DNA from: Halostella limicola
Lineage (GTDB): Archaea; Halobacteriota; Halobacteria; Halobacteriales; Natronoarchaeaceae
Length of the DNA: 44,627 nucleotides
Assembly (NCBI RefSeq): GCF_003675875.1
Contig: NZ_RCDI01000009.1
Span: forward strand, 1 to 44,627
Reading direction: 5' to 3'
Each line of letters opens with the position of its first letter. The first letter of the stretch is position 1. Positions 1 to 44,627 of the stretch are shown one piece after another. The translations under genes and the position numbers were made by a program. A model generated the notes under the pieces. The model did no database searches, was not told the DNA's origin, and saw only the letters and a program-made list of their open reading frames with translations.

Positions 1-56
1 TCAGCGAGCTCACCGTCGTCGTTCTTTTCCGCTCTCGAAAGGTCTCGGTTGGACAT
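1..56 (-). CDS. Duplicate 5' end of spike-like gene (partial)
   Basis: These are the first 56 bases, including the ATG at 54-56, of the gene that is complete at 43072-44556. It is present twice only because of the circular overlap and should be counted once. The ATG follows the 325-aa gene stop by 16 bases. A good Shine-Dalgarno sequence (GGAGG on the minus strand, within 67-72) sits in that gap, which supports co-transcription across the junction. Confidence 0.9.
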   Translation of the reverse strand, partial: MSNRDLSRAEKNDDGELA

Positions 57-127
57 GTACTGAAAACCTCCGTTAAATCTGGGTCGTCCGCTGCGTGTCG
101 TCGATCGCCTCTGCCGCCCGCCCGACG
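1..127. repeat. Terminal direct repeat, left copy (circular overlap)
   Basis: All 127 bases are identical to 44501-44627. An exact repeat at the extreme ends is the usual sign of a circular molecule written linearly with assembly overlap. The repeat cuts through two genes: the start of the spike-like gene (minus, 1-56) and the end of the 325-aa gene. True direct terminal repeats of a linear virus are the alternative but are less likely, because the reading frames continue cleanly across the junction. Confidence 0.95.
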
Positions 128-1050
128 TTGACTCGCACCGTCACGATCTGCGTCGCGGGCGCGTCCTCGCCCGGCGCGTAGACGAGCGCGCCGTCCGCGT
201 TCACGAAGTACTGGCCGACTGCGTCTTCGGCCTCGTCGCGGTGCGGGATGCTCGTCCCGCCGATCTCCATGATCGCGTCGTTGCCGCCGTGGTCCCGTAG
301 CGGGTCTACCACGACGGCCGAGCGCGACAGTTCGACCGTCTCGCCGACCGCGTACTCGCTGGCGGGCTGCTCGAGCTCGAACTCGTGTTCGTGCTCGAAG
401 TCCGCGAACAGCGCTTTCGCCCACGCCGTCCGGGACGCATGGTCCTCGCTATGCAGCGAGACCGTGCCGACGGTGTCCGGCGGGATGACCACCGACCCAC
501 TGTCGGCGTGGAACTCGTCGAGACGGGCGCCGTCGACGGTGATGAACATCTCCTGTGTGATGGGGAGTACGTCCGTCACCACGTCGGCGATCTCCACCTT
601 GACCCCGCCGTCGTTCTGAAACAGGTCGAACTCGGCCACGTCGAGAACGGGCGTGTTCTCGGCCCGTGCCGCGCCGCCGAGTGCGGCAGCGCCACCGAGC
701 GCGGCGCCCATCCGGAGCACGTCGCGCCGGGAGATGGGTTCGTCGGCGTGCTCCAGATCCTCGCTGTCGAGATGCCGGGCGCTGCCGACGACGCCCGCGC
801 CGAGTGCAAACGGCCAGAGGTTGTCGAAGTCGAACCAGCCGTCGCCCGTCAGCGGGAACGCCAGCCGTTCGAGGCCGATGGTGCCGCCCGGCGCGGGTTC
901 GAGCGCGAGCGGGCCGAGGTAGAGTCGCCGGTCGGTCTGGCGGACCGGGCCGACGACGTCGAGTTGCACGTCCTCGCCCGCGACGCCGATGTCGCGGTCG
1001 CCCTCCAGGTGGAAGAGGGTGTTGCGGACGGTCTGGTAGCTACGGGTCAT
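73..1050 (-). CDS. Exported or membrane-anchored protein with an internal Tat-like motif, 325 aa
   Basis: Not recognised. About 105 residues precede a twin-arginine motif (SRRDVLRMG, residues about 107-115), followed by an Ala/Gly-rich hydrophobic stretch and an Ala-Arg-Ala cleavage-like site near residue 130. There is no in-frame ATG between residue 1 and the Met inside the Tat motif, so either the Tat segment is internal (a membrane anchor after a cytoplasmic domain) or a non-ATG start is used. A weak hydrophobic stretch at residues 85-95 precedes it. The C-terminal 190 residues are acidic and look beta-rich. The ATG overlaps the stop of a 28-codon gene. It is the last gene before the spike-like gene across the circular junction and is probably a surface component of the same apparatus. 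Confidence 0.75.
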   Translation of the reverse strand: MTRSYQTVRNTLFHLEGDRDIGVAGEDVQLDVVGPVRQTDRRLYLGPLALEPAPGGTIGLERLAFPLTGDGWFDFDNLWPFALGAGVVGSARHLDSEDLEHADEPISRRDVLRMGAALGGAAALGGAARAENTPVLDVAEFDLFQNDGGVKVEIADVVTDVLPITQEMFITVDGARLDEFHADSGSVVIPPDTVGTVSLHSEDHASRTAWAKALFADFEHEHEFELEQPASEYAVGETVELSRSAVVVDPLRDHGGNDAIMEIGGTSIPHRDEAEDAVGQYFVNADGALVYAPGEDAPATQIVTVRVNVGRAAEAIDDTQRTTQI

Positions 1051-1133
1051 TGTGCGGTAGAACGGGGAAATCGGTCATCGAGTCGATGCGGTCGCGGTCG
1101 AAGATCGGGCGGCGGGTCCGGTGGTGGCCTCAT
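1047..1133 (-). CDS. Tiny proline/arginine-rich ORF, 28 aa
   Basis: A 28-codon ORF that exactly fills the gap between two operon genes. Its ATG overlaps the stop of the 252-aa gene and its TGA overlaps the ATG of the 325-aa gene, both as ATGA. The product begins MRPPPDPPPD and is rich in Pro and Arg, unlike the acidic neighbours. The double overlap suggests translational coupling. It may serve mainly to carry ribosomes to the next gene. No family recognised. Confidence 0.45.
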   Translation of the reverse strand: MRPPPDPPPDLRPRPHRLDDRFPRSTAQ

Positions 1134-1888
1134 AGATCCCTCGCTACGTCCCCGGCACCGCCGAGGTTGAGCGTCTGGTAGACGCCTTTCAGTTGCGCGT
1201 CGGTCGTATCCTCCGCCCACCACATTCCGCGTTCGCGTGCCGCCCACGGGTCTTCGACGGCGTCCTCAGAACTCTTCGCATACACGTCGTTCTCGTACCA
1301 CGCTTTCCGCGCATCCAGCCACGACTCGACGCCGTCGAGGAACTCACTCGGGAGCGCGCCGTCGCCCTCGCTCTCTGGGTTGAAATGGTGGTGCGTCGGG
1401 TCGACCGCCAGATTCGCGTGCTGGCCGTCCGTAAGGTTCGCGTCGGCGGCGGCCAACTCGTCCGCGTAGTGGTGTCCGGACGAGAAGACCACCGAGTCGA
1501 GTGTGCCGTCTTTGACGAACGCGATGAACGGTTCATGGTCCTTGAGGTGCGCGTCCGCGGCGCCGAACCACGCCCCGTCGAGTCCCAGCCACTCCTGCCA
1601 CGCTGAGGATTGGGCCGGGTACTTCATCCAGTAATAGTACGCGTCGGTCTCGTACTCGTCACTCTCGGCCCGCCAGCCGTAGATGTCCTGCATCTCCTGC
1701 CGCGTCGAGTAGGACGCGTGGAGCGCCGGCTGCCACTCTGCCAGTTCCGCCGGGTCGTCCGAGACGGTGTGAATGTGGCTGGGTCGCTCCGGCGGTTCGG
1801 CCGCCGCGGCCGTCGACGAGAGGCCGACGACGGCGGCGATACCCGCACCTGTCGCTCGGAGGAACTGGCGACGCGTACTCGTTGTCAT
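1130..1888 (-). CDS. Tat-exported His-rich protein, 252 aa
   Basis: Starts with a canonical Tat signal (TRRQFLRATG, then a hydrophobic Ala/Val/Gly run ending in AAAAE near residue 30). The ATG at 1888 was chosen over an upstream in-frame ATG because it puts the twin arginines at residues 6-7 and lies 4 bases after the subtilase stop. The mature part is aromatic- and His-rich, with HTH, DHEP, GHH and a THHHF cluster that could bind metal. It follows the subtilase directly, so it may be its substrate, partner or inhibitor, but no family is recognised. Exported in folded form, outside the membrane. Confidence 0.8.
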   Translation of the reverse strand: MTTSTRRQFLRATGAGIAAVVGLSSTAAAAEPPERPSHIHTVSDDPAELAEWQPALHASYSTRQEMQDIYGWRAESDEYETDAYYYWMKYPAQSSAWQEWLGLDGAWFGAADAHLKDHEPFIAFVKDGTLDSVVFSSGHHYADELAAADANLTDGQHANLAVDPTHHHFNPESEGDGALPSEFLDGVESWLDARKAWYENDVYAKSSEDAVEDPWAARERGMWWAEDTTDAQLKGVYQTLNLGGAGDVARDL

Positions 1889-1892
1889 GGTT

Positions 1893-3440
1893 CTAGAAGA
1901 GGTACCGTGTGGCGAGGCCACCCTGTGCGTTCGACAGCGCTCGAAACTCCGCGTCACGGGCCTGGGCATCGGCGTTCATCGCCTCGGCCTGCGTCTGGTC
2001 CGGTTCGGTCTCGTTGATCGCGGCGTCGACGTCGAGGAGCCCGTGTTTCATTTCAGCTTCGGCGATCTTCGGCGCCGGGCGCGCGTACGTGCGTAAACGG
2101 TCGTAGATGTCGGCCGGCGCGAGGCCACCCGTCGCGCCCTGGAGGAGCGCGGCCGCGGCGGCCACGTCCGGTGCGGCCATCGACGTCCCCGATTTGACCT
2201 TCTTGCCGTCGGGCGTCATCGCCTCTACTTCCATCCCGGGCGCGCCGATGTCAGGCCGGGTACCGCTCGTGTTCCCACCCGAGTCGTCAAGCGTTCCGGG
2301 GTCGGGGCCAGTGTTCGCAAAGTAGGCGACCTTCCGCTTGGTCTCGTCGACCGTCGCCGTCGTCGCCGTCACGCCCAGCGCGTCGTCGGCGTCGCTCGGT
2401 GAGGCGGTCCAAATAGTGCCGAAGCGGTCGTTGCCCACCGCGACGAACACCGGGATACCGGCCTCGACGACGGCCGCGACGGCGTCCGCGATCGCCTGGG
2501 AGAACAGCGGACTCCCGAGGCTCATGCAGACCGCGTCGGGCGTCACGTTGAGCGTCAGCAGGTACTCCAGCGCGCCGACAATGTCGTCGGTGCTTCCGCT
2601 TCCGTCATCGTCGAGCGCTCGGAGAGCGAGAATGTCGGCCGCGGGGAGGAACCCGTCGTACGTCGAGTCCGACGCATTCGCCGCCATCTGCGACGTGACG
2701 AACGTCCCGTGTCCTGCGCCGTCCGAGAGCACTGAGAGGCCGCCCTCTGCGACCGTCGTGTTGCTGATGTGGTCCTTGCTCTGGTCGAGGATGCGGGTGT
2801 TGCCGCTCCCGTCTTCGAACACGGCGCCAGCGTTCAGGCCGGAGTCGATGACGCCGATAGTCAGCGTGCTCGTGTCGACACCGTGGCCGGTGGCGTACGA
2901 CGCCTCGCGGACCTGCTGCATCGGGGAGACTGTCGCGTCCTCGTTGAATGCGACGCCCGACGAGGACGGCACGCCGGCATCGAGTTGCCCGCTGGCCTTC
3001 GTCACTGTGCGCTGGGTGCGGGAGAGGCCGAAGTCCCACGCCGACGAGTCGTCGAGGGCGCCGAGCGGGTCCGGCAGTGACGCGACGATGTTGAGATCGA
3101 CCATCGACACGTAGCTCTTGTGCGCGAGGCCGGAGCCAAACCGACCACCTGTCACGTGCGGGCGCGGGGCGACGACCGTCATCATGTCGAGCTGGGAGTG
3201 CTCGCTCAGGATGCGTCGGTCCTCGTTGTCGTCGACCCACGTTCGGACCGAGTCGGCGCTGTCCGCGTCGTGTTTGACGACCCACGACGGGATCCCGTCG
3301 TCGAACATCTTGAGTTCGTCCGGCGAGGTCGTCGCGAGCGTCGTGAGGGCGCTGCTCCCGAAGAGGTTGCCCCCAAGGAACGGCACGGCCGCGGCGGCCG
3401 GGACAGCCTGGAGGAAGTCCCGGCGCGTCGGGTCCGTCAT
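1893..3440 (-). CDS. Tat-secreted subtilisin-like serine protease (S8, halolysin-like), 515 aa
   Basis: A Tat signal is at the N-terminus (TRRDFLQAVP, hydrophobic to about residue 28). The catalytic triad is clear: Asp199 in GVIDSG, His244 in GHGTFV and Ser420 in SGTSMAAP, with oxyanion Asn337 in AVGND. Residues 30-180 form a propeptide-like region. The family consists of secreted endopeptidases; halophilic members fold before export through Tat. Its start overlaps the stop of the 1247-aa gene (ATGA). Position inside the surface-protein operon suggests processing of element-encoded surface proteins or opening of the recipient S-layer; that role is inferred. Confidence 0.93.
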   Translation of the reverse strand: MTDPTRRDFLQAVPAAAAVPFLGGNLFGSSALTTLATTSPDELKMFDDGIPSWVVKHDADSADSVRTWVDDNEDRRILSEHSQLDMMTVVAPRPHVTGGRFGSGLAHKSYVSMVDLNIVASLPDPLGALDDSSAWDFGLSRTQRTVTKASGQLDAGVPSSSGVAFNEDATVSPMQQVREASYATGHGVDTSTLTIGVIDSGLNAGAVFEDGSGNTRILDQSKDHISNTTVAEGGLSVLSDGAGHGTFVTSQMAANASDSTYDGFLPAADILALRALDDDGSGSTDDIVGALEYLLTLNVTPDAVCMSLGSPLFSQAIADAVAAVVEAGIPVFVAVGNDRFGTIWTASPSDADDALGVTATTATVDETKRKVAYFANTGPDPGTLDDSGGNTSGTRPDIGAPGMEVEAMTPDGKKVKSGTSMAAPDVAAAAALLQGATGGLAPADIYDRLRTYARPAPKIAEAEMKHGLLDVDAAINETEPDQTQAEAMNADAQARDAEFRALSNAQGGLATRYLF

Positions 3441-6400
3441 GCTGCCACCCCCGTCGTCGGCGAGGTTGTGGCGACGGTGTTCTGCGGTTCGGCGGCCGGT
3501 GCCGTGAGGCCGGTCGTGACGACCTCGGTCGGCAGGCCACCGAAGAGGTCGAAGATGAAGTCGACGATCATGAACGGGTTGATGTCCGGGAGCGTGCGGT
3601 CCATCCAGTGACGGGCGCGGTCGTAGTAGCCGGGGTCGCGCGTGATCTCCACGACCGCGACGCCTTGCGCGTTCGTGCGCGTCTGGATGACGTGTTTGTT
3701 GTCGCCACGTTCGTCGACGGCACCATACTGGGTCGTTCCGTCGTGGGTGAACGCGTTGTCGTTGACCCAGAGCAAGGCCGAGTCCTCGAATGTCTCCGTG
3801 TGGATCTCGACGGCCATGTGCGACCGGACGGTCTCGCGGTCCTCACCGCGGAGGACGCGGACCTCTATCTCGTCGGTACCGCTCTGCATCACGCTCTGTG
3901 GTTCAACAACGACCTTCCCGGGTGCGTTTTCGCCGCCGGGGATGACGCCGGACACCGTGAGACGATCGCCGTTCTCCTCAACACGTGCGGAACGGAGACC
4001 TTCACCGGCGAGTGCGTGGGTGCCGCTCGGTCCGCGCCGGGCGCGGATGGTCGGCGGCTGGCTCGTCGAGGACTCCTCGGCACGGAGGCTGAAGGTTTCG
4101 ACGAACGGGTCACCGCCCTGATTGCTATACTGTGCGCGCACGAAGTGCGAGCCCTGACTCTCAGGGGTGAAGCTCACGCGGCCGTTGTCGCGGATGGTCG
4201 CGTTGACTACCGTGCCGTCGGGTGCGTAGACGTCGACCGCCTCTATCTGCCCGTAGCCAGTGCCCGATTCGGCGCGGAGCTGGAACGTGACGCGCTCGTC
4301 GACGCCGGGCCGGAGCGTGTTCACGTCGATAGCGTTGAGGTTGGGCACGTCGCCGCTAAACTGCGGGTTGACGATGCGTGCCGTCTCCTCGCCGACACCG
4401 TCCTCGCTGGCGGCGCGAACACGAACGTTCGCGACCGCGGCGTCAGTGGTTTCGATGGGGAACTCGTTTATCTCGACGGACTGGGAGCCGACGAGGCCGC
4501 CGTCTGAGAGTTCCCAGTACTCGTCGGGCATCTGTTGGACCGTCCCGTTACTCCACACGATTTCGACGGCGACGTTCTCCTCGTCGACGCCGTCGGGGAC
4601 CGGGAACGACCCGGAGATCGTCGAGAGCGACTCGTTGACCTCTTCGACGCTCGTCTCGGCGTCGCCCATATCGATGCGGTTGGCCTGGAACGACGCCGAC
4701 TGCATCTTGTCGATCTGCGTGCGGAGTTCCTCATTGGAGAGTTCGCTCGGCTCCGGGACTTCCTCGTAGCCGGTCTCGTTGAGGTAGTACTCCAGTGCTG
4801 GCGGGTAGCCCTCGACGAGTGAGCGAGAGTTGTTGTAGAGGCTCACCAACTGCGCGCGCGTGACGTTTTCGAGGCGCTGCTCGTACTGGGCCTCCAGGTC
4901 CGCGATCGTCTCGTTGAGTCGGAGGTTTTGCGCCCACTCCAGTAGGTCGGCGTAACTACTCATGTTCAGGTTCGGCACTTCCGGCGACTTGATCGTCTTC
5001 ACAGTCACGTTCTGCGCGGGCGGGTTCGCGCGGTCCGGTTCGGGGCTGGGCAAGATAAACGACCCGTTGTAGTCGCCCTCGGCCGCGTCGCGAAGCGTAT
5101 CCATCGACACGTTCTCCGTGTTCTGAAGGACTTCGCCGTCGACGCGGTATGCCTGCATCTGGACCGTGACGACGTTGTCCGGGACATCAACCGAGAACGA
5201 CCCATTTTCGTCGGTTGTCGTGGTACGCCGCACGACCTCGTCGTTGTTGACCATCGTCCGAACGCGGTCGGCGCGGTCGGTCAGTTGCTCGTGTTCGTCG
5301 CGGAGGTCCTGCTCGATGCGGTTTGCGAGCTCGTCAGCGTCGCCGTGGACGAACGTGTAGCCCTGTTCCGGGGCGCCCTCAGGATATACTCGGTAGACGC
5401 CCGACGGGAGTTGCGTGCGGACGCCGTGGTGTTCCTGTTGGTTTACTTGGTTGCCAGTTCTTGCGACAACCTCTGATTCGTAGGTCTGTCTGTTCGTCAC
5501 TTCGCCAGACGGGCTCAGTTGCTCAACGACAATCGACTGTTGCTCAGGCGTGCCCGGGAACGAGTTAATGACCGGGTTCCCCACGAGCTCTCTGTCAGTC
5601 GCGTCCCAGACCGAGATGATTACCGGCTGTTCGGACGACGTTTGGAGTTTCGGGTCATCTATCTGGTCGGTGGTGAGTGCGTTCTGGAGGTCGTACTCTC
5701 GCCCCCAGTCGTCAGCTTCGTGGACGAGTAGGTAGGTACCCGACTGGTGTTCCTCAAGGTCGTACGACTCGTTCCACGAGTTCGGCAGTGGATTTTCGAG
5801 GTCGTCGAGGAGATCGTCGGCCTGTTGTTCGAGCGATTCGGCGTCGCTCGTGTTGAGCGCCGGTTCTGCGACGCCCCACACTTCGACGGTCGTGTTCGCC
5901 GGAACGGGGTCGCCGTTCTGGTCGATTACTTGACCCCCAATAGCGACACTAGTTGGGCCGGCATCACCGATATGTCCAAACGTAGCATCCTCAATTCTGG
6001 AACCCTCACTACTCGCCTCGCCCCCAGTATCAATAGAGTGGAAATATCCTTCACCATCACCCACCATCACGGACCCATCAACAACCGTTGGGTCACTCCT
6101 CATCAGTGTCGATGTTGTCGAGTACGTCCACGCTTGAGACCCGCTCGAATCGACTGCGTAGACATCCCCATCATTTGCTGCGAAATAGATATTATCACCA
6201 GCCACCGTCGGGCTAGTGAAAATGTTGTCAGTTGGGTTTGTAAACTCCCAATTGACGGAGCCAGTATCCTCGTCGAGCGCAGCTAATCGGGATGATGAGC
6301 CATTATACGTCGTTACGTAAACGGCGCCGTTATGCACGGTGGGAGCTGTTCTGACTTCGCCGAGGTCTGCTGTATTTGACCACACCACGGAACCATCGCT

Positions 6401-7180
6401 GGCATTGAGTGACGTCACTCCCTCACTCGTTGAGTCTGACGTGCTGTAAGAGCCAGCAAAGACAGTTCCATTAACGACAGTCAATTCCCGGGCTATTGGC
6501 CCGATGCTAGTTGACCATTCTTCACTGCCAGTCGCCGCATCAATACCATACACATTGCCGTCGCCAGTCCCTACGTAGATAGTGCCGTTTTGAACAGTCG
6601 GGTTATAGACCGTCCCCCCAGGCGTCGTGAATGCCCATTCTTGGTCTCCACTAGTAGCGTTTACTGCATATAGGGTCTGATCAGAGCTACCAGCATACAC
6701 TGTTCCGTTATGGTAAACCGCCGAGCCACCGATTACATCTGACGGAGACGTGAACTCCCATTCTTCAACACCCGTATCTGCATTCAGGGCGAGCAACGAA
6801 TCATTATGAGTTCCAACATAGACAGTTCCCCCAGCTACATGAGGGGTTGAAAACGACATATTACCAATAGAGTAAGTCCACTTCGTCGACCCATTTTCAG
6901 TGTATACGGCGTGGACAGTTCCATCAGAGAAACTATTGTCATTCACTGAGGTGAAATAGGCAACCCCATCCACGATCGTCGGAGCGGACCGTATTGATGC
7001 TGAGTCACCTGAGGATTGGGATGCATTATGTGTCCATTCTTCGTCCCCAGCAGCTACTACTGCTGTCGTATCTGTACTTGCTGTCGCGGGAAGGCTAACA
7101 AATGGACCGATGATGCTCCCCACGAGCAATACTGCCAACACTGCGGAACGGATTTGATTCTGGTTTTGTTTGGTCATCAT
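3437..7180 (-). CDS. Large secreted protein with eight-blade PQQ-type beta-propeller, 1247 aa
   Basis: Sec signal peptide at residues 1-35, ending near ATAST. Residues about 45-395 contain eight propeller blades of the form AlxAxTGxxxWxF (for example ALNADTGVEEWEF). A carboxypeptidase-regulatory/Ig-like stretch follows (GGQVIDQNGDPVPANTTVEV, about 415-435), then long helical or coiled parts (about 600-660 and 730-850), more Ig-like segments, and a hydrophobic stretch near 1190-1215 that may anchor it. Many NxT/S sequons. PQQ-type repeats here are probably structural or adhesive rather than an enzyme. The propeller-coding DNA (about 5940-7140) is visibly more AT-rich than the rest, suggesting an exchanged head domain. 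Candidate major spike or adhesin of the particle or transfer apparatus. Confidence 0.85.
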   Translation of the reverse strand: MMTKQNQNQIRSAVLAVLLVGSIIGPFVSLPATASTDTTAVVAAGDEEWTHNASQSSGDSASIRSAPTIVDGVAYFTSVNDNSFSDGTVHAVYTENGSTKWTYSIGNMSFSTPHVAGGTVYVGTHNDSLLALNADTGVEEWEFTSPSDVIGGSAVYHNGTVYAGSSDQTLYAVNATSGDQEWAFTTPGGTVYNPTVQNGTIYVGTGDGNVYGIDAATGSEEWSTSIGPIARELTVVNGTVFAGSYSTSDSTSEGVTSLNASDGSVVWSNTADLGEVRTAPTVHNGAVYVTTYNGSSSRLAALDEDTGSVNWEFTNPTDNIFTSPTVAGDNIYFAANDGDVYAVDSSGSQAWTYSTTSTLMRSDPTVVDGSVMVGDGEGYFHSIDTGGEASSEGSRIEDATFGHIGDAGPTSVAIGGQVIDQNGDPVPANTTVEVWGVAEPALNTSDAESLEQQADDLLDDLENPLPNSWNESYDLEEHQSGTYLLVHEADDWGREYDLQNALTTDQIDDPKLQTSSEQPVIISVWDATDRELVGNPVINSFPGTPEQQSIVVEQLSPSGEVTNRQTYESEVVARTGNQVNQQEHHGVRTQLPSGVYRVYPEGAPEQGYTFVHGDADELANRIEQDLRDEHEQLTDRADRVRTMVNNDEVVRRTTTTDENGSFSVDVPDNVVTVQMQAYRVDGEVLQNTENVSMDTLRDAAEGDYNGSFILPSPEPDRANPPAQNVTVKTIKSPEVPNLNMSSYADLLEWAQNLRLNETIADLEAQYEQRLENVTRAQLVSLYNNSRSLVEGYPPALEYYLNETGYEEVPEPSELSNEELRTQIDKMQSASFQANRIDMGDAETSVEEVNESLSTISGSFPVPDGVDEENVAVEIVWSNGTVQQMPDEYWELSDGGLVGSQSVEINEFPIETTDAAVANVRVRAASEDGVGEETARIVNPQFSGDVPNLNAIDVNTLRPGVDERVTFQLRAESGTGYGQIEAVDVYAPDGTVVNATIRDNGRVSFTPESQGSHFVRAQYSNQGGDPFVETFSLRAEESSTSQPPTIRARRGPSGTHALAGEGLRSARVEENGDRLTVSGVIPGGENAPGKVVVEPQSVMQSGTDEIEVRVLRGEDRETVRSHMAVEIHTETFEDSALLWVNDNAFTHDGTTQYGAVDERGDNKHVIQTRTNAQGVAVVEITRDPGYYDRARHWMDRTLPDINPFMIVDFIFDLFGGLPTEVVTTGLTAPAAEPQNTVATTSPTTGVAA

Positions 7181-10711: not shown

Positions 10712-11089
10712 ATGGATCCCGAAATACAGCGACGGATGCAGTTCTCGCGCCGGCTTGAAGAGGGCGGCATCGACAATGCCCTCATCCTCCGGCGTGAGAC
10801 CGCAGAGAGAGTGCTGACGGAGAAGCGTATGGAACTACTGGAGGCTATCGCCACCAGTTCAATCGAGTCGAAGCGGGACCTCGCGCGGACGGTCGATCGT
10901 GACATCAGTATCGTCAGTCGGGACCTCGACGTCCTGTTCGAGGCTTCCGTCATCGAATACGAGGAGGGCGGTGGCCGGCAGCGGCCGGTGCTAAAGCACG
11001 CGAACGTCCTCGTTGAGCCTGTCGTATTCGAGGGCGAAGTCGCGGGGAGTGGCGAATCCGAACCTACGGAAGAAGCCGTCGCTCCGTAA
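10712..11089 (+). CDS. MarR-like HTH protein of the HVO_A0114 type, putative antitoxin/repressor, 125 aa
   Basis: Residues 28-95 show a winged helix: ERVLTEKRMELLEAIATS, SKRDLARTVDRDISIVSRDL (recognition) and a wing IEYEEGGGRQRPV. This order matches haloarchaeal HVO_A0114-type putative DNA-binding proteins, some of which act with TumE-like toxins. The C-terminal tail is acidic and disordered. A dyad operator lies just upstream. Function as antitoxin is inferred. Confidence 0.7.
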   Translation: MDPEIQRRMQFSRRLEEGGIDNALILRRETAERVLTEKRMELLEAIATSSIESKRDLARTVDRDISIVSRDLDVLFEASVIEYEEGGGRQRPVLKHANVLVEPVVFEGEVAGSGESEPTEEAVAP

Positions 11090-11185
11090 CGACTTTCAGA
11101 TTTACTTTCGGGGCTGCTTCCAAGAGACGGGAGTGCCGACTCTGTCGGTCCGAAAATCGGACACCGAGAAAAACCGCGGTGCTGG

Positions 11186-11470
11186 TTAGAAGTACGCGCC
11201 GCAGGACGGACAGGACACGCCGTCGCGGAAGTGAGCGATCCAGCGGCCGCCCTTGAACCCGAAGTACGCGCCGAGGACTCCGAGCGGTAGGGTGGCCGCG
11301 ATCCCGGCACCCATTGTCGCGAGGCCCACCATTCCTCCGACAATGAACCCGAAGAATAGCGAGGCTAGCGCGGCGAGGGCTAATGCAAAGATTAGGCTAT
11401 TTTCCGGACCGTCCGGGCTCACTACTTCATTGCATGATTCGCATTTCACGTCGTAATCGGTGAGATCCAT
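11186..11470 (-). CDS. Small membrane protein with split zinc ribbon, 94 aa
   Basis: CESC at residues 10-13 and CPSC near residues 88-91 flank two Gly/Ala-rich transmembrane segments (about 27-50 and 53-72). Both metal-binding halves would sit on the same side of the membrane and could form one zinc site. No function recognised. A membrane-surface sensor or immunity-type role is possible but unsupported. Confidence 0.7.
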   Translation of the reverse strand: MDLTDYDVKCESCNEVVSPDGPENSLIFALALAALASLFFGFIVGGMVGLATMGAGIAATLPLGVLGAYFGFKGGRWIAHFRDGVSCPSCGAYF

Positions 11471-11504
11471 ACAGGTCCGACCGTCTCATGCCATCCTTAT
11501 TATA

Positions 11505-11855
11505 CTAGGCTTCTGACGCTTTTTGAACGAACTCCTCAGGAGAACAGTCGGTGTATTTGCCTTCGTACTGCCCGTGGCAGCTCGGGCAGAGTGTGATGAG
11601 ATTTGAGAGATCGTTCATGTCACGCCATTCCGAATCGTCGAAGCGAGAACGCGGAGTGATGTGATGGACCGATGGTTCCCGGCCGAGTTCCGTCTCATGT
11701 GAACCACAAATTCGGCAGGTTCTAGAATCGCGTTCGAGGCACTTTCGCCGTTGTCGTGACCAGTTCGGTCCATAGCCTTTCGCAGAGTAGGGTGAATCCA
11801 GGCCGACGGACTTGTAGACTGATGCTACCAAAAGCTTGGTCAAAGTATGCGTCAT
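11505..11855 (-). CDS. HNH endonuclease, 116 aa
   Basis: Contains the HNH fold: zinc pairs C47xxC50 (CRICG) and C90xxC93 (CPSCH), catalytic His in VHHITPRSRF (64-65), and Asn in NDLSNLITLC. Such small enzymes nick or cut DNA; in mobile elements they act in homing, defence or packaging. A TATA-like box (minus strand TATTATAT, 11881-11888) lies about 26-33 bases before the ATG, which suggests a leaderless or very short-leader mRNA. It stands alone, without a large terminase subunit nearby. Confidence 0.88.
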   Translation of the reverse strand: MTHTLTKLLVASVYKSVGLDSPYSAKGYGPNWSRQRRKCLERDSRTCRICGSHETELGREPSVHHITPRSRFDDSEWRDMNDLSNLITLCPSCHGQYEGKYTDCSPEEFVQKASEA

Positions 11856-30204: not shown

Positions 30205-32676
30205 TCAGAGCACCTCCTCAACACCGTCCCAGTCGGCCTTGATAGCCTTCTCCCCGATGGAGGTGAGCTTGAACACTCCATTTTCCTTCTCGACACAGTG
30301 GCCAAGCTTCCGAGGATCGTTGATGTACTTGTACACCGTCCGCTCCGCGACGACGTCGGTCGCCTCTGCAATATCACCACCGCTGGTGAGCGTCCCGGAT
30401 TCATCGCGATGAATCTCTTCGAGAATCCAGATGTAGTTATCGCGGCGCTCGGTATCCTCGTTGATCCAGTGACTGACCGCCTTCGGTATCCCGAACTCCT
30501 GCATGACGCGCTTCCGTTTCTTCTCGTCGGCTTCAGACGATGCGAGGAACGAAAGCCGCCGTTCGGCGTTGTCCTCGACGCGGCGTAGCGACAGGTCGCT
30601 CGGGATATCGTGTTCGCGACGACGCTCCAGCGCTGCGTCTATCACCTCGTCGTCGACAGTGTCGCCCGCGTTGACCGGGCGCGCGTCGCCGGGAAGATCG
30701 CTGGGGAAGAGGTGCCACTGCCCCAACTCTGGCGTGACCTCGCTTTCAGTATCCAGCTCGTACACGGTCCCCGAGAGAACGTCTATCCAAAGGTCGCGGT
30801 CGCCGTGTTTCTTGAGCCACCCATCTCCGTGGTACTGCCGGACACGAGCGCCCCATGACTTGCCGTAGCGGTCCCGCCAGTGTTCGTCGCCGGAACCGAG
30901 ACCGCATCGTGCCCCGCGCCACTGTATCGGGTAGTCCTTCCGACCGTCGTTCAGCAGCATTCCCCACCCGGTACTGAAGCTCTGGAGTTGCTCCTTCTGG
31001 TCGTGGCTGAAGTTAAACGAGTCGTCGAGCGTCTTTATCTCCTCTGCGCCCAACTTCAGCAGGATCTTGATGGGCATGTTCGTCCGGACTGCCTTGGACA
31101 CCTCGTTCAGCTTCTGTGTCGATCCGATGAGCATCACTCGCCTCGATCCGCCCTGCTGGGCGATGTCGTAGAGCGTGTTCCGTAGCGCCTTAATCTGCTT
31201 CCGGTAGTCGGTCTGACCGAGCTTCGACGGTGCGAGGTTGTCGATCTCCCTACTCTCCAGTGCCGCCCGCGGAAGCCGCGGGTGCTCGTCCCGGATACGG
31301 AAGATGAACCGGTACCAGAGCGTCTGAACAAGGTACTTGAGTCCCTCGTTCCGGTCCTTCAGGAAGTTACAGTTGAGGACAGCCACGCGGTCCTTCTTGA
31401 ACTCCTCAACGAGGTCCAAGTTGGTCTCCGCACCAGTGTCCTCGATAAGCCCCTCGCCGGCGAGCATCATCAACGCGTCCGCGCAGTCCTCCAGCAACGC
31501 GTCTTCGTCCATCTGGTAGTGTATCTCCCGGATCTCCCCCTCTGATGCCTCGACCTCTTCAGCGTCGGCGAGGATCTTGTTCCCGTCCTCGTCCTCCCGG
31601 AACTCGTCGTCGGCGATCTCCTCGACGGTGATGGTGGCTTCGACCTCTTCCGCGTACGTCTTGAGCTTCGAGACGAGGTCCTCGACTTCACCAGTCGTTT
31701 GTTGAACCTCGTTGAGCGCCTTCCCGACGCGGCGCATCGTGTTCTGGTCGTTCGTCGTGACGCCGGCGAGGTGGAGGATTAGCTTCGGCGTCAGGTCGTC
31801 GATGCCGATGGTAAACCGCTCGTAGTTGGACGGGAGTACCTCGGGAACGCCGCTGGTTGCCGGGACGTACACGACGGTCTCGTAGCCTTTCGGCCCCTGG
31901 CCGAACTCCTCCAGATTCTCCTTGATCCCCTCGTCGTCCGACGGCGTCGCGATCATCGGCGTCTCGTTCCGGCCGTCGTCGTAGCAGGAGAACCACTTGT
32001 ACGGGTGCTCATCCTTGAGGTTCCCACAGATGCTGGCGATCGTGGAGTCCTTCCCCTGACGGGGCAACGCCACGACGAGGATATGCTCGCAGTCCTCGTG
32101 GCTGATGACGGGCGCGACGTCGTCGGGGGACTGCGCCTGGTCGGCGCGCATCCGCTTGCGGCCGATGGGCGTGATGTCGCCCTGCTTCGAGGACGCACCG
32201 CCCGGGAGGTCCAACTGCTGGAGCGTCACGGGTGCGTATGGCGTGGTGTCACGGATCGAGCTGAGGTAGCCCAGCTCGATAGCGAGACGAACCTGCGTCT
32301 CGAACTCGTTGCCTGCGTCTGGCGGTGTCTCTCCCCGATCGCGGATGTCCATCTGCTTCTGAAACGCGAGTTTCGTCTCTCTGTCGACCACGTCGAGGCC
32401 GTCCGTCGACGGGGAGAGAACGTCGGAAATGTCGGGGTGGTCGCGCAGGTGCCAGTGGATTGCGGTGAGGAGGTAGTCGATCGGGAGCGGCGAGTCCCCG
32501 GCGAGTGAGTTCCGGGCCGCGGAGATAAGCGCCCGGACCGTTGCCTCGTGTTCGGTCCGTTGTTCGTCTGCCTGCTGTTGGATCCCCGCGTTCGTAATAC
32601 TCCGCAGTGCGGCCTGTACCTCTTCCTCGTCCGTCGGCTGGATGTCGTGGTATGGATTCGTCTCTGGAGTGCTCAT
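30205..32676 (-). CDS. Large P-loop ATPase (HerA/TraG-like DNA translocase, inferred) with winged-helix tail, 823 aa
   Basis: Residues 198-213 (HILVVALPRQGKDSTI) are a P-loop in which GKDS replaces the usual GKT/GKS, after a strand. Downstream VAVLNCNFL and RVMLIGSTQKLNEVS resemble Walker B-like and sensor strands, with SREIDNLAP between. The C-terminal 90 residues are a winged helix (GDIAEATDVVAERTVYKYIND). Overall size and order suggest a HerA/FtsK/TraG-family pump with DNA-contacting tail. It is last in a long run of membrane-protein genes and is the likely motor of transfer or packaging. Divergent enough that the family call needs a profile search. Confidence 0.68.
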   Translation of the reverse strand: MSTPETNPYHDIQPTDEEEVQAALRSITNAGIQQQADEQRTEHEATVRALISAARNSLAGDSPLPIDYLLTAIHWHLRDHPDISDVLSPSTDGLDVVDRETKLAFQKQMDIRDRGETPPDAGNEFETQVRLAIELGYLSSIRDTTPYAPVTLQQLDLPGGASSKQGDITPIGRKRMRADQAQSPDDVAPVISHEDCEHILVVALPRQGKDSTIASICGNLKDEHPYKWFSCYDDGRNETPMIATPSDDEGIKENLEEFGQGPKGYETVVYVPATSGVPEVLPSNYERFTIGIDDLTPKLILHLAGVTTNDQNTMRRVGKALNEVQQTTGEVEDLVSKLKTYAEEVEATITVEEIADDEFREDEDGNKILADAEEVEASEGEIREIHYQMDEDALLEDCADALMMLAGEGLIEDTGAETNLDLVEEFKKDRVAVLNCNFLKDRNEGLKYLVQTLWYRFIFRIRDEHPRLPRAALESREIDNLAPSKLGQTDYRKQIKALRNTLYDIAQQGGSRRVMLIGSTQKLNEVSKAVRTNMPIKILLKLGAEEIKTLDDSFNFSHDQKEQLQSFSTGWGMLLNDGRKDYPIQWRGARCGLGSGDEHWRDRYGKSWGARVRQYHGDGWLKKHGDRDLWIDVLSGTVYELDTESEVTPELGQWHLFPSDLPGDARPVNAGDTVDDEVIDAALERRREHDIPSDLSLRRVEDNAERRLSFLASSEADEKKRKRVMQEFGIPKAVSHWINEDTERRDNYIWILEEIHRDESGTLTSGGDIAEATDVVAERTVYKYINDPRKLGHCVEKENGVFKLTSIGEKAIKADWDGVEEVL

Positions 32677-41805: not shown

Positions 41806-42861
41806 TTACACCCCCGCCGCGCGGGTGGCCTCGAAGTTGTTGATGCTCAGTGCGTCGAAGAGGCCGTCGACGGGCATCAGGCTCATCGGGCTGATGAGCG
41901 AGATGCCGTAGACGTCGAAGGCCTGGCTGAAGCTGGCGCCACCGGTGAGGTCCACGTCGACGGAGTCAGTCGCGCCGTGGTTCATGATCTGCACCGCGGA
42001 AGAGCCACCGAGGTCCTCGGTGTAGACAGCGTACGTGTCGCTGGTGTTCGCCGAGTCCGGGGCTTCCTCGTAGTAGACCGGGACGGCCTCGCCGTCGACC
42101 ATCGCGGTCGCGGTCCAGATGCGGTCACCCGCTTCGGCGCTGGAGCCAGCAACCGGGAGCGGGTTCGTATCGTCGACAGAGTCCGAGAAGTCCTGTGCGA
42201 CACTACCGTTACCCAGCGCCATCACGACCGTCGTGTTCTCGGTGACGTTCTTCGTCGTCGAGAGGTCGGTGTAGTCCTCAGCGTGGGCGTACGGCAGCGA
42301 GACGTTGACACCGAATGCGCCGAAGGACTCGCCCTCGCTCAGGTCGACGATGTTGCCAGCGTCGACGTCCGAGGCGCTGACGTACTCGACGGCGTAGGAG
42401 TCGTCAGTCTCGACGTAGGCCGTGAATGAGGTGTTGTCGGGGCTGGAGACGTTGGTGTTGTTGTACGCCGTGACCTCGATCGTGACGTTGTCGTTGATGC
42501 CGCGTTCGAGGTCGGCGAGTTCACCGTGGTTGACGGAGACGTTGAAGTGCCCGTCGTTGTCGGTGCTGTTCCACATCACCGTCTCGGGCGTCGAGTTCGC
42601 GTAGACGAGGTCGCCCGTGCCGTTGTGGGCGATCTCTACTTTCGACTCGTTGGAGTCCGCCTGGTACTGCACGACTGTCGCCTGCGAGGCGTTCGCGGTG
42701 AAGTTGGTGATGGTGCTACCCGTCTGGAGCTCGGTCGTCGTGGTTGTGTCGTCCGTCGCGCTCGTGTCGATGGTCGGCGCGGCGGCCATCGCGCCACCGC
42801 TGATGACCGACAGCGCCAGTGCGACTGCGAGCACGCTGCTAATCGCTTTTCGAGAGTTCAT
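41806..42861 (-). CDS. Abundantly glycosylatable secreted protein, candidate major particle/surface protein, 351 aa
   Basis: Sec signal at residues 1-27 (AISSVLAVALALSVISGGAM, AAA). The mature chain carries about 16 NxS/T sequons, is Thr/Asp/Val-rich and beta-structured, and ends with a moderately hydrophobic stretch (VYGISLISPMSLMPVDGL). No S-layer C-terminal PGF-type signal. First full gene after the 210-base gap, upstream of the membrane-protein series, the position expected for a major pilin- or coat-like product. Function inferred. Confidence 0.75.
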   Translation of the reverse strand: MNSRKAISSVLAVALALSVISGGAMAAAPTIDTSATDDTTTTTELQTGSTITNFTANASQATVVQYQADSNESKVEIAHNGTGDLVYANSTPETVMWNSTDNDGHFNVSVNHGELADLERGINDNVTIEVTAYNNTNVSSPDNTSFTAYVETDDSYAVEYVSASDVDAGNIVDLSEGESFGAFGVNVSLPYAHAEDYTDLSTTKNVTENTTVVMALGNGSVAQDFSDSVDDTNPLPVAGSSAEAGDRIWTATAMVDGEAVPVYYEEAPDSANTSDTYAVYTEDLGGSSAVQIMNHGATDSVDVDLTGGASFSQAFDVYGISLISPMSLMPVDGLFDALSINNFEATRAAGV

Positions 42862-43071: not shown

Positions 43072-44556
43072 CTACTCGTTTGCTCGTTGAACCTCAAACA
43101 CGGTTCTCCCCTCGTTCACTTCGCCGTTGTTTGCCTTCGCAACGACAGTAAGCACCTGCCCTTCGAGGAGATACACTGATTGATTGATGGTAAGTGACTG
43201 TCGGTGATTTTGGCTCCCACTGAGATCATTCTCCGAGAACCGAACTTCGGATCCGTCGCGGTGGAGAGTGGCGTATATCTGATGGTCTGATGTTTGCCCT
43301 GTGAATTGCAGTGTGGCGTCGACATCGTACCAGCCCGTTGTGGGGGCAACGTAGCCATTATCTGGCTCTGAGAAAGCCCGCTCGAAGTCAGGAGCAACCG
43401 TGTCGAACGTCACCGTCTGCTCACTCCCGTCCATCGTTTGCGCTCCAAGTGAACTGCTCTTGAATATCCGAGCGTATGCTGACTTCGTAGCCGTTGGAAC
43501 CGCGACCCCCAGTGACCAATCATGATTCTCGTCCTTTCCGTCAACAATCGCCATCGGCTCGCCGCCCCAGTCGCCCGCAAGAATGTCCATATGGTGCATC
43601 CCCGTCCGACGCCACGTACTCTCAATGAGTGAGTTGTCACCTCGAAGAATTGGGGACGTGTCCACCTCGGACCAACTAAACGACGACGTAGAGAGGTCAG
43701 TAATGCGGAACCAACGGACTTGCGTATTCGTCTGGTCCTCGATTGGCAATTCGATATGGTGAGGGTAGACGTGAGCACGGCCAGCGCCACCTTCCTCCGT
43801 CGAATCTGCCCCAATAGGGCTGTTGGCGTGTTCTGTCCACGATCGTCCCGTGATACTACGTCCTTCATCAGCGTACCACAGGGTTGCTTGGCCGTTCGTC
43901 GTCGTGATTAGATACCAACGGCCTTCCCACCAGATAGGCGTCGGGTCGCTGTTGGCCGCCCCTGTGAGAATCGTCTCTTGTAGCGTCGGAGACGGCGTTG
44001 AATCGAACCCGTCGAACGTGTATATCTGGACGCCATTGCCCGAGTGTGACGGGAGTAGATACCACTGGTCGTCGATTTTTCGAAACAGTGAGTAGGAGTA
44101 ATTGACCCCATCGGCTTGCCCGTCGAGGACCGTCCCAGATTGATAGGACAGGGAATCGGGAGAGGGGCCTTTCCAGTAGCCGATATTCTGAGAGTAGCTC
44201 CCGTCGCCGTCGTCGTCATGCTTGATTTCGGCCAGGAGATGGATCGTCCCGTCGACTGCCCGCCAGAACGGGTCTGCAATGAATCTGACGTTGTTGAGGT
44301 CGGTTACGTCCGACGCAGACACAACAGGATTCGAGAGTTGCGGGTGTTCCTTCCACGCTGGCGAGCCACCGAACTCCCCACTCATCACGTCGTGGGGGTT
44401 GTTTTGCGAGAGGTCCGCCCGTGCGCTTCGCGTGGTGCGTGCTTGCTCTGTATGTAACGATTCGGTTTCGGACGGTGGGAGCTGATACCGCTCGTCTGAT
44501 TCAGCGAGCTCACCGTCGTCGTTCTTTTCCGCTCTCGAAAGGTCTCGGTTGGACAT
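43072..44556 (-). CDS. Spike-like protein: beta-propeller plus C1q/TNF-like jelly roll, 494 aa
   Basis: Residues 1-65 are hydrophilic with no signal peptide. Residues about 75-365 repeat a five-blade-propeller pattern (RFIADPFWRAVDGTIHLLAE, SYSLFRKIDDQWYLLPSHSG, DPTPIWWEGRWYLITTT), as in GH43/GINT1-type carbohydrate-binding propellers; the usual hydrolase acids are not evident. Residues about 380-494 have a C1q/TNF-like trimer domain: GYVAPTTGWYDVDATLQFTG, IYATLHRDGSEV, VYLLEGQVLTVVA. This two-part build resembles phage receptor-binding proteins. Its DNA is more AT-rich than neighbours, suggesting acquisition. Starts across the junction after a GGAGG Shine-Dalgarno. Confidence 0.8.
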   Translation of the reverse strand: MSNRDLSRAEKNDDGELAESDERYQLPPSETESLHTEQARTTRSARADLSQNNPHDVMSGEFGGSPAWKEHPQLSNPVVSASDVTDLNNVRFIADPFWRAVDGTIHLLAEIKHDDDGDGSYSQNIGYWKGPSPDSLSYQSGTVLDGQADGVNYSYSLFRKIDDQWYLLPSHSGNGVQIYTFDGFDSTPSPTLQETILTGAANSDPTPIWWEGRWYLITTTNGQATLWYADEGRSITGRSWTEHANSPIGADSTEEGGAGRAHVYPHHIELPIEDQTNTQVRWFRITDLSTSSFSWSEVDTSPILRGDNSLIESTWRRTGMHHMDILAGDWGGEPMAIVDGKDENHDWSLGVAVPTATKSAYARIFKSSSLGAQTMDGSEQTVTFDTVAPDFERAFSEPDNGYVAPTTGWYDVDATLQFTGQTSDHQIYATLHRDGSEVRFSENDLSGSQNHRQSLTINQSVYLLEGQVLTVVAKANNGEVNEGRTVFEVQRANE

Positions 44557-44627
44557 GTACTGAAAACCTCCGTTAAATCTGGGTCGTCCGCTGCGTGTCG
44601 TCGATCGCCTCTGCCGCCCGCCCGACG
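44501..44627. repeat. Terminal direct repeat, right copy (circular overlap)
   Basis: Identical to 1-127. After removal of one copy the circle is 44,500 bp. Minus-strand bases 44573-44627 duplicate the 3' end of the 325-aa gene, whose full copy lies at 73-1050. Confidence 0.95.

Follow-up and report, generated by a model that had tools for sequence, protein, structure and literature searches.

The replicon and its gene order

The window, by which is meant the whole stretch of 44,627 nucleotides analysed here, is an entire contig whose two ends share an exact overlap of 127 bp. These identical termini indicate a complete circular replicon of about 44,500 bp, and with the circle closed the gene for a spike-like protein at 43072..44556 (hereafter the spike) lies at no truncated end and is preceded by the gene at 73..1050. 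Apart from the spike gene, the following features were recognized.

1..127, no strand: terminal repeat, identical to 44501-44627, of the circular replicon
73..1050, minus strand: putative Tat carrier of type B, 325 aa, with an N-domain of ~100 aa, an SRR Tat signal at aa 107-109 and an outer domain
1130..1969, minus strand: ORF8 (NPP1/NLP-like in the literature) with a Tat signal
1893..3440, minus strand: ORF7, an S8 subtilase with a Tat-like N-terminus (Pfam PF00082, E=3.7e-29)
3437..7180, minus strand: ORF6, 1247 aa, with a PQQ-type propeller at its N-terminus (Pfam PF13360; match to pR1SE ORF6, 4e-69)
30205..32676, minus strand: ORF25, a VirB4/HerA-like ATPase, 48% identical to that of pR1SE
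41806..42861, minus strand: ORF9-position protein, 351 aa, Sec-like, assigned from position, size, signal and homologues in that position

The 823-aa ORF25 ATPase matched 14 haloarchaeal plasmids in a PLSDB search, and its identity to the pR1SE protein (NZ_KX687704) extends over 98% of the length. ORF6 and ORF7 also match pR1SE (9e-69 for the latter). The cluster 1 order ORF6, 7, 8, 9 is kept, with the carrier and spike genes inserted between ORF8 and ORF9, and cluster 2 with its ORF25 ATPase is present as well. An MCM helicase, a ParA-type ATPase and an integrase are further encoded. Judged by gene order and homology, the window is an apHPV and a relative of pR1SE. The apHPVs have been grouped with pR1SE, a plasmid of haloarchaea that itself encodes the membrane vesicles in which it spreads (Lucking et al., 2023, PMC10818511).

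The 325-aa protein was itself considered as a candidate for ORF9 and was dropped, homologues placing the 351-aa protein in that position. The PQQ-type propeller of ORF6 (3437-7180) makes it a second propeller protein in the operon of the spike. Duplication within this plasmid type was also observed: the plasmid G101:C5 (130,675 bp) bears the apHPV core ATPase twice, with equal score and with the neighbouring genes doubled too.

The spike-like protein

The spike gene and its parts were located as follows.

43072..44556, minus strand: signal-less spike-like protein of 494 aa, an open reading frame from ATG
44567..44571, minus strand: Shine-Dalgarno sequence GGAGG, 10 nt before the spike ATG and right after the TAA of the carrier
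44383..44556, minus strand: N-terminal ~58 aa, of low model confidence and without the N-terminal tag of other type-B partners
43474..44382, minus strand: predicted five-bladed propeller, aa ~59-361, a divergent relative of PF24793 GINT1_N and the GH43/GH130 fold, from homology and modelling
43075..43461, minus strand: C1q/TNF-type jelly roll within aa 366-494, from profile and fold matches

The carrier stop codon lies 16 nt upstream of the spike ATG, across the contig join. Signal calls throughout this study follow simple hydropathy rules and not SignalP; by these rules the spike has neither a twin-arginine motif with a hydrophobic stretch nor a hydrophobic N-terminal stretch, in agreement with the original prediction of a protein devoid of Sec and Tat signals. 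The predicted contrast with its neighbours was also found, as ORF6 and ORF9 are Sec-like and ORF7, ORF8 and the carrier have Tat signals, that of the carrier being matched by Pfam TAT_signal (E=4.5e-5). The GC3 of the spike gene is 0.63, compared with 0.81-0.90 in ORF8, the carrier and ORF9. Searches of the spike sequence against phage sequences and against the PDB gave no match.

A five-bladed propeller of GH43/GH130 type is confidently modelled over aa ~66-358, the larger part of the protein. In the AlphaFold2 model, built with 52 relatives, pLDDT is mostly 80-95 over aa 70-350 and very low over the N-terminal ~58 aa. Among solved structures the model comes closest to five-bladed GH130 mannoside phosphorylases and to enzymes of GH62 and GH43 (Z 24.4, rmsd 2.8, 263 residues), in VIA-align lists that, here and for the C-terminus below, re-examine Foldseek hits only, so that a family absent from them proves nothing. 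When searched alone, the whole spike matched no Pfam family at an E-value of 1 or below. Its homologues do belong to PF24793, and the propeller is accordingly called a divergent relative of GINT1_N: all eight scanned relatives match this family, among the homologues being L005 (blastp E=3e-32 to the spike), which matches PF24793 at 2.8e-37. Matches to the spike at E of 0.001 or less were found in 66 of the 392 genomes of its order, its own included, nearly all of them to the propeller.

The spike retains 48 of the 90 positions that are conserved in at least 75% of the 52 relatives. Residues D95, E110, D204, H243, H321 and D339 of the propeller are kept, and the near-invariant H152, P156, Q273, Y276, G277 and the Glu following P169 are absent. 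Glycosidases and phosphorylases have the fold modelled here, and an enzyme activity of the spike is putative. Some relatives of the propeller carry H_lectin or LamG domains, and of four relatives with listed surroundings (L036-L039), three (L037-L039) sit among sugar- or envelope-type genes as judged by eye.

For the C-terminus, a profile built from three haloarchaeal sequences (the window, L034 and a Tat protein in L035) matched C1QL2 among PDB chains at E=0.0022. With phage relatives added, the profile reached C1QL1 at 4e-6; these relatives supply much of that C1q signal, and the weaker value from the haloarchaeal profile is therefore the fairer number. Pfam C1q is matched by five of the seven aligned C-termini, the window sequence not being among them, and the spike C-terminus has no Pfam C1q match of its own. 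Modelled alone with seven sequences, the domain, at aa ~376-494 of the spike, had a pLDDT of 67.8; the model matched TNF/C1q proteins with Z 10.7-12.5, a cyanophage short tail fibre (8ke9) with Z 11.1 and a chain of a cyanophage portal-tail complex (9k09) with Z 11. The Foldseek check of the single-chain models thus found both a five-bladed propeller and a TNF/C1q-type jelly roll, the two parts that had been anticipated from the sequence. The C-terminal profile matched 13 of 382 genomes, its own included, and a C1q scan of viral contigs gave no match.

Two further haloarchaeal proteins share parts of this architecture. In the chromosome-like contig of G170 (L280, about 10862-11690) a broken relative has propeller and C1q pieces in the order of the window, adjoining sulfatase-, flippase- and glycan-like genes identified by eye. 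A chromosomal protein (L034, 7248-8723) has a similar C1q-type end on a different, repeat-like body.

The slot between ORF8 and ORF9

Fifty stretches, pR1SE included, were collected from genomes with the ATPase (27 of 391 in the class) and from matches to ORF8 or the carrier. ORF8 and ORF9 were both readable in 40 of them, G188 being kept with its ORF8 located by tblastn. The ten dropped for want of a readable ORF8 or ORF9 were G433, G046, G284, G288, G428, G101C1, G334, G331, G017 and G258. Related plasmids are not independent and two of the 40 stretches look like repeats (G101a/b; G251/G251C3b), hence counts are given here and no P value.

The distance from ORF8 to ORF9 is 13-167 nt, that is, with the slot empty, in 24 of the 40 stretches (112 nt in pR1SE) and exceeds 1 kb in the other 16. 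Eleven of these long gaps (11/40 overall) contain a carrier. Six of the carriers, of type B, are arranged as in the window, with an N-domain of ~100 aa followed by the Tat motif (aa 99-130) and an outer domain (window, G218b, G228, G245, G391 and G199C4). The other five, of type A, are ORF8 paralogues with the Tat motif near the start (G188, G199, G239, G287 and G320). No mutual phmmer match between the two types is among the matches listed. A scan of viral contigs with the carrier gave no match, and searches of carrier profiles against the PDB returned nothing useful, the lone match below 0.01 covering the signal region. One host was observed to have two apHPV-type plasmids (C3 and C4 of G199) whose carriers differ, the one being of type A and the other of type B.

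All 11 carriers have a Tat signal, and each is followed, after 0-16 nt, by the start of a gene whose product has no signal by the hydropathy rules. A signal was called in 98 of 104 ORF6, ORF7 and ORF8 proteins (23/26, 37/39 and 38/39, respectively), compared with 259 of 454 unlabelled coding-like ORFs. The ORF9 profile drifted (80 matches in 50 stretches), and for ORF9 the signal counts are accordingly given no weight. The layout was repeated in plasmids held out from the survey. A PLSDB search with the window carrier gave four plasmids, two of them outside the set of 11, and in both of these, CP050018 (Haloarcula sp. JP-L23) and CP031299 (Natrinema thermotolerans), a gene for a signal-less protein starts 2 nt after the carrier. 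The arrangement of a carrier followed within 0-16 nt by a signal-less gene is therefore seen in 13 of 13 elements.

The remaining five long gaps comprise rearrangements (G101a/b), small genes (G249), a methyltransferase-like gene (G363) and, in G192 (L182), a 674-aa protein with glycosyltransferase-like genes recognized by eye and no carrier. The carrier-less slot spikes, which are this 674-aa protein and that of G331, bear an RR motif of their own (Tat-like in G192), which fits a need for export.

Contents of the slot

The slot genes encode a variety of proteins, some with domains of the attachment type. Phage tail families were matched by the first partners in G218b and G228, with E-values down to 2e-13, and the G228 protein also matches 420 phage records, several of them annotated as minor tail protein. 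These tail-fibre-like proteins in the same slot of other such plasmids accord with the likeness to phage attachment proteins noted originally. LamG occurs in four slot genes (two in G199, one each in G245 and G320), an FG-GAP propeller in the G287 slot, a WD40 propeller in that of G199C4 and a calcineurin-like phosphoesterase in that of G199; the window contributes its propeller and C1q-type domain. Library support for attachment-type domains was thus obtained in eight of the 13 slots. The proteins of G188, G239 and G391 had no library support, being LamG- or beta-helix-like by eye only, and for the contents of CP050018 and CP031299 Pfam gave nothing and PHROGs a single weak match, to a family of unknown function.

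The GC3 of the first partner is below that of ORF9 of the same element in 11 of 11 cases, which would be expected if such genes are replaceable. The G218b and G391 slots hold, behind their spike genes, a tyrosine recombinase (PF00589; L074 15549-16316, E 1e-14, and L108 13610-14296, 1e-12), a possible means of module exchange. Five other type-B partners have a common N-terminal tag. Whether the spike shares it was also considered, and this was rejected (bits -2.2, with 1647 of 2000 shuffles scoring as high).

Proposed mechanism and alternative explanations

Tail fibres of tailed viruses need no signals because they are assembled in the cytoplasm. The attachment protein of a budding vesicle must sit outside. 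Since the Tat pathway transports proteins in the folded state, it could let a pre-folded propeller through. We propose, with roughly even confidence for and against, that the spike gene at present fills an accessory slot for receptor-binding proteins in cluster 1, the vesicle-structure operon, and that its product is exported folded by Tat hitchhiking. The spike would fold in the cytoplasm, as phage tail fibres do, and bind the Tat-signal carrier translated just before it; the Tat translocase would then ferry the folded spike out on the signal of the carrier. Once exported, probably as single copies, three spikes would be held together by their C1q-type domains; a trimer assembled beforehand (~160 kDa) may exceed the size that Tat can move, which makes trimerisation after export the likelier order. 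The propeller would then bind a glycan on the surface of the next host cell, cutting of that glycan being less likely. Emptying and refilling of the slot between plasmids would set which cells a vesicle attaches to. Since pR1SE spreads although its own slot is empty, a spike cannot be indispensable.

Several observations count against this proposal. The spike lacks the N-terminal tag, five of the 13 slots are without domain support, and other genes, such as the methyltransferase-like one, occupy some gaps. Infection by pR1SE is, according to the available text of one report, independent of host N-glycans (PMC10384203), and the propeller relatives in polysaccharide gene clusters may be enzymes. 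An alternative is a cytosolic sugar-active enzyme, whose propeller would edit the surface glycans or nucleotide sugars of the donor itself and so protect or mark the plasmid-bearing cell. Working inside, such an enzyme would need no signal; its nearest propeller relatives belong to PF24793 and several of them lie in polysaccharide-type clusters, GH130/GH43 enzymes share the fold, the family-invariant D95, E110, D204 and D339 are kept, and the gaps of G192 and G363 hold genes that by eye are glycosyltransferase- or methyltransferase-like. The C1q-type C-terminus, the position behind a Tat carrier in a vesicle-structure operon, the tail-fibre or lectin proteins at the same position elsewhere and the loss of near-invariant residues all speak against it, and we regard it as unlikely. 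The spike gene might also be recent cargo with no role in the vesicle, given that apHPVs pick up host or virus DNA. Carriage of host DNA by apHPVs is known (PMC10818511, in the text available), and both the low GC3 of the gene and the broken relative of like domain order among glycan-type genes in G170 would fit. A single insertion point used in 11 elements, always behind one or other Tat carrier and within 16 nt of it, counts against casual uptake, as do slot contents that lean to attachment domains and held-out plasmids that repeat the layout; mere cargo is accordingly thought improbable.

The missing signal had originally been taken to imply assembly from inside or release by lysis. This part of the prediction was not supported, since with a Tat-signal protein encoded just upstream in 13 of 13 elements co-export is the simpler explanation. 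A spike incorporated into particles within the cytoplasm and set free by lysis would resemble a tail fibre, which likewise assembles without a signal, and some slot proteins do resemble tail fibres; a scan of 10 window proteins against PHROGs gave no match to tail or capsid families, as had been predicted for tail genes, and lysis appears very unlikely. Least probable of all is a spike in the lumen or on the inner face of the vesicle, for instance one binding the plasmid or its cargo. The absence of a signal would suit such a location, and against it stand an architecture of propeller and C1q-type domain suited to extracellular ligands and a Pfam scan of the spike that found no nucleic-acid-binding family.

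Under the proposal of an exchangeable slot served by Tat carriers, the RR motif of the carrier is predicted to be needed for export of its partner, and the tail-fibre, lectin and propeller genes become named candidates for the recognition of recipient cells by vesicles. For this step the 2023 survey, in the text available, could only suggest ORF17 (PMC10818511). A wider and more tentative reading, possible rather than probable, is that haloarchaeal vesicle plasmids have a dedicated, exchangeable host-range slot, from which phage-type attachment proteins, some derived from tailed viruses, are displayed on the membrane vesicle by two unrelated Tat carriers via hitchhiking, a route not known to have been described for virus-type spikes. 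If true, tailed viruses and vesicle plasmids would be linked by common attachment proteins, Tat hitchhiking would be extended to archaea and to surface adhesins, and apHPVs would be infectious plasmids with virus-like receptor switching.

Comparison with known systems

The window resembles pR1SE and the other apHPVs in its ORF6-9 and ORF17-25 clusters, its ORF25 ATPase and its circular plasmid form (Lucking et al., 2023, PMC10818511). In the available text of that survey, cluster 1 is syntenic and diversity is placed between ORF9 and ORF17, whereas the window differs by an insert between ORF8 and ORF9. pR1SE itself has neither the carrier nor the spike, and the window has both. A slot of this content between ORF8 and ORF9 is absent from the main text of the survey, in which the words tail, spike, adhesin and Tat have 0 occurrences (PMC10818511); nor was one described in the titles and abstract openings of the literature on apHPV/pR1SE vesicles, on haloarchaeal tail fibres and Tat, and on host recognition.

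The PF24793 GINT1_N propellers of haloarchaea, cyanobacteria and others share with the spike a common fold, an ADP motif and ~30% identity over ~290 aa. Unlike the spike, these relatives are found in other locations, several in glycan-type gene sets, and a C1q end is missing from all eight that were scanned. A C1q/TNF-type jelly roll on an attachment protein is found in phage short tail fibres (8ke9, 9k09) and also in eCIS fibres (PMC12923769, in the text available), as in the spike, which differs in being encoded on a plasmid where neither a tail nor a contractile apparatus was recognised.

In Escherichia coli, export of proteins without a signal by Tat hitchhiking on a partner is documented (PMC4273604). 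In the hitchhiker pairs HybO/HybC and PaoABC, only one of the subunits encoded together in an operon has the signal, as is the case for the carrier and the spike. Those known pairs are bacterial redox enzymes, whereas the spike would be a candidate attachment protein in an archaeon.
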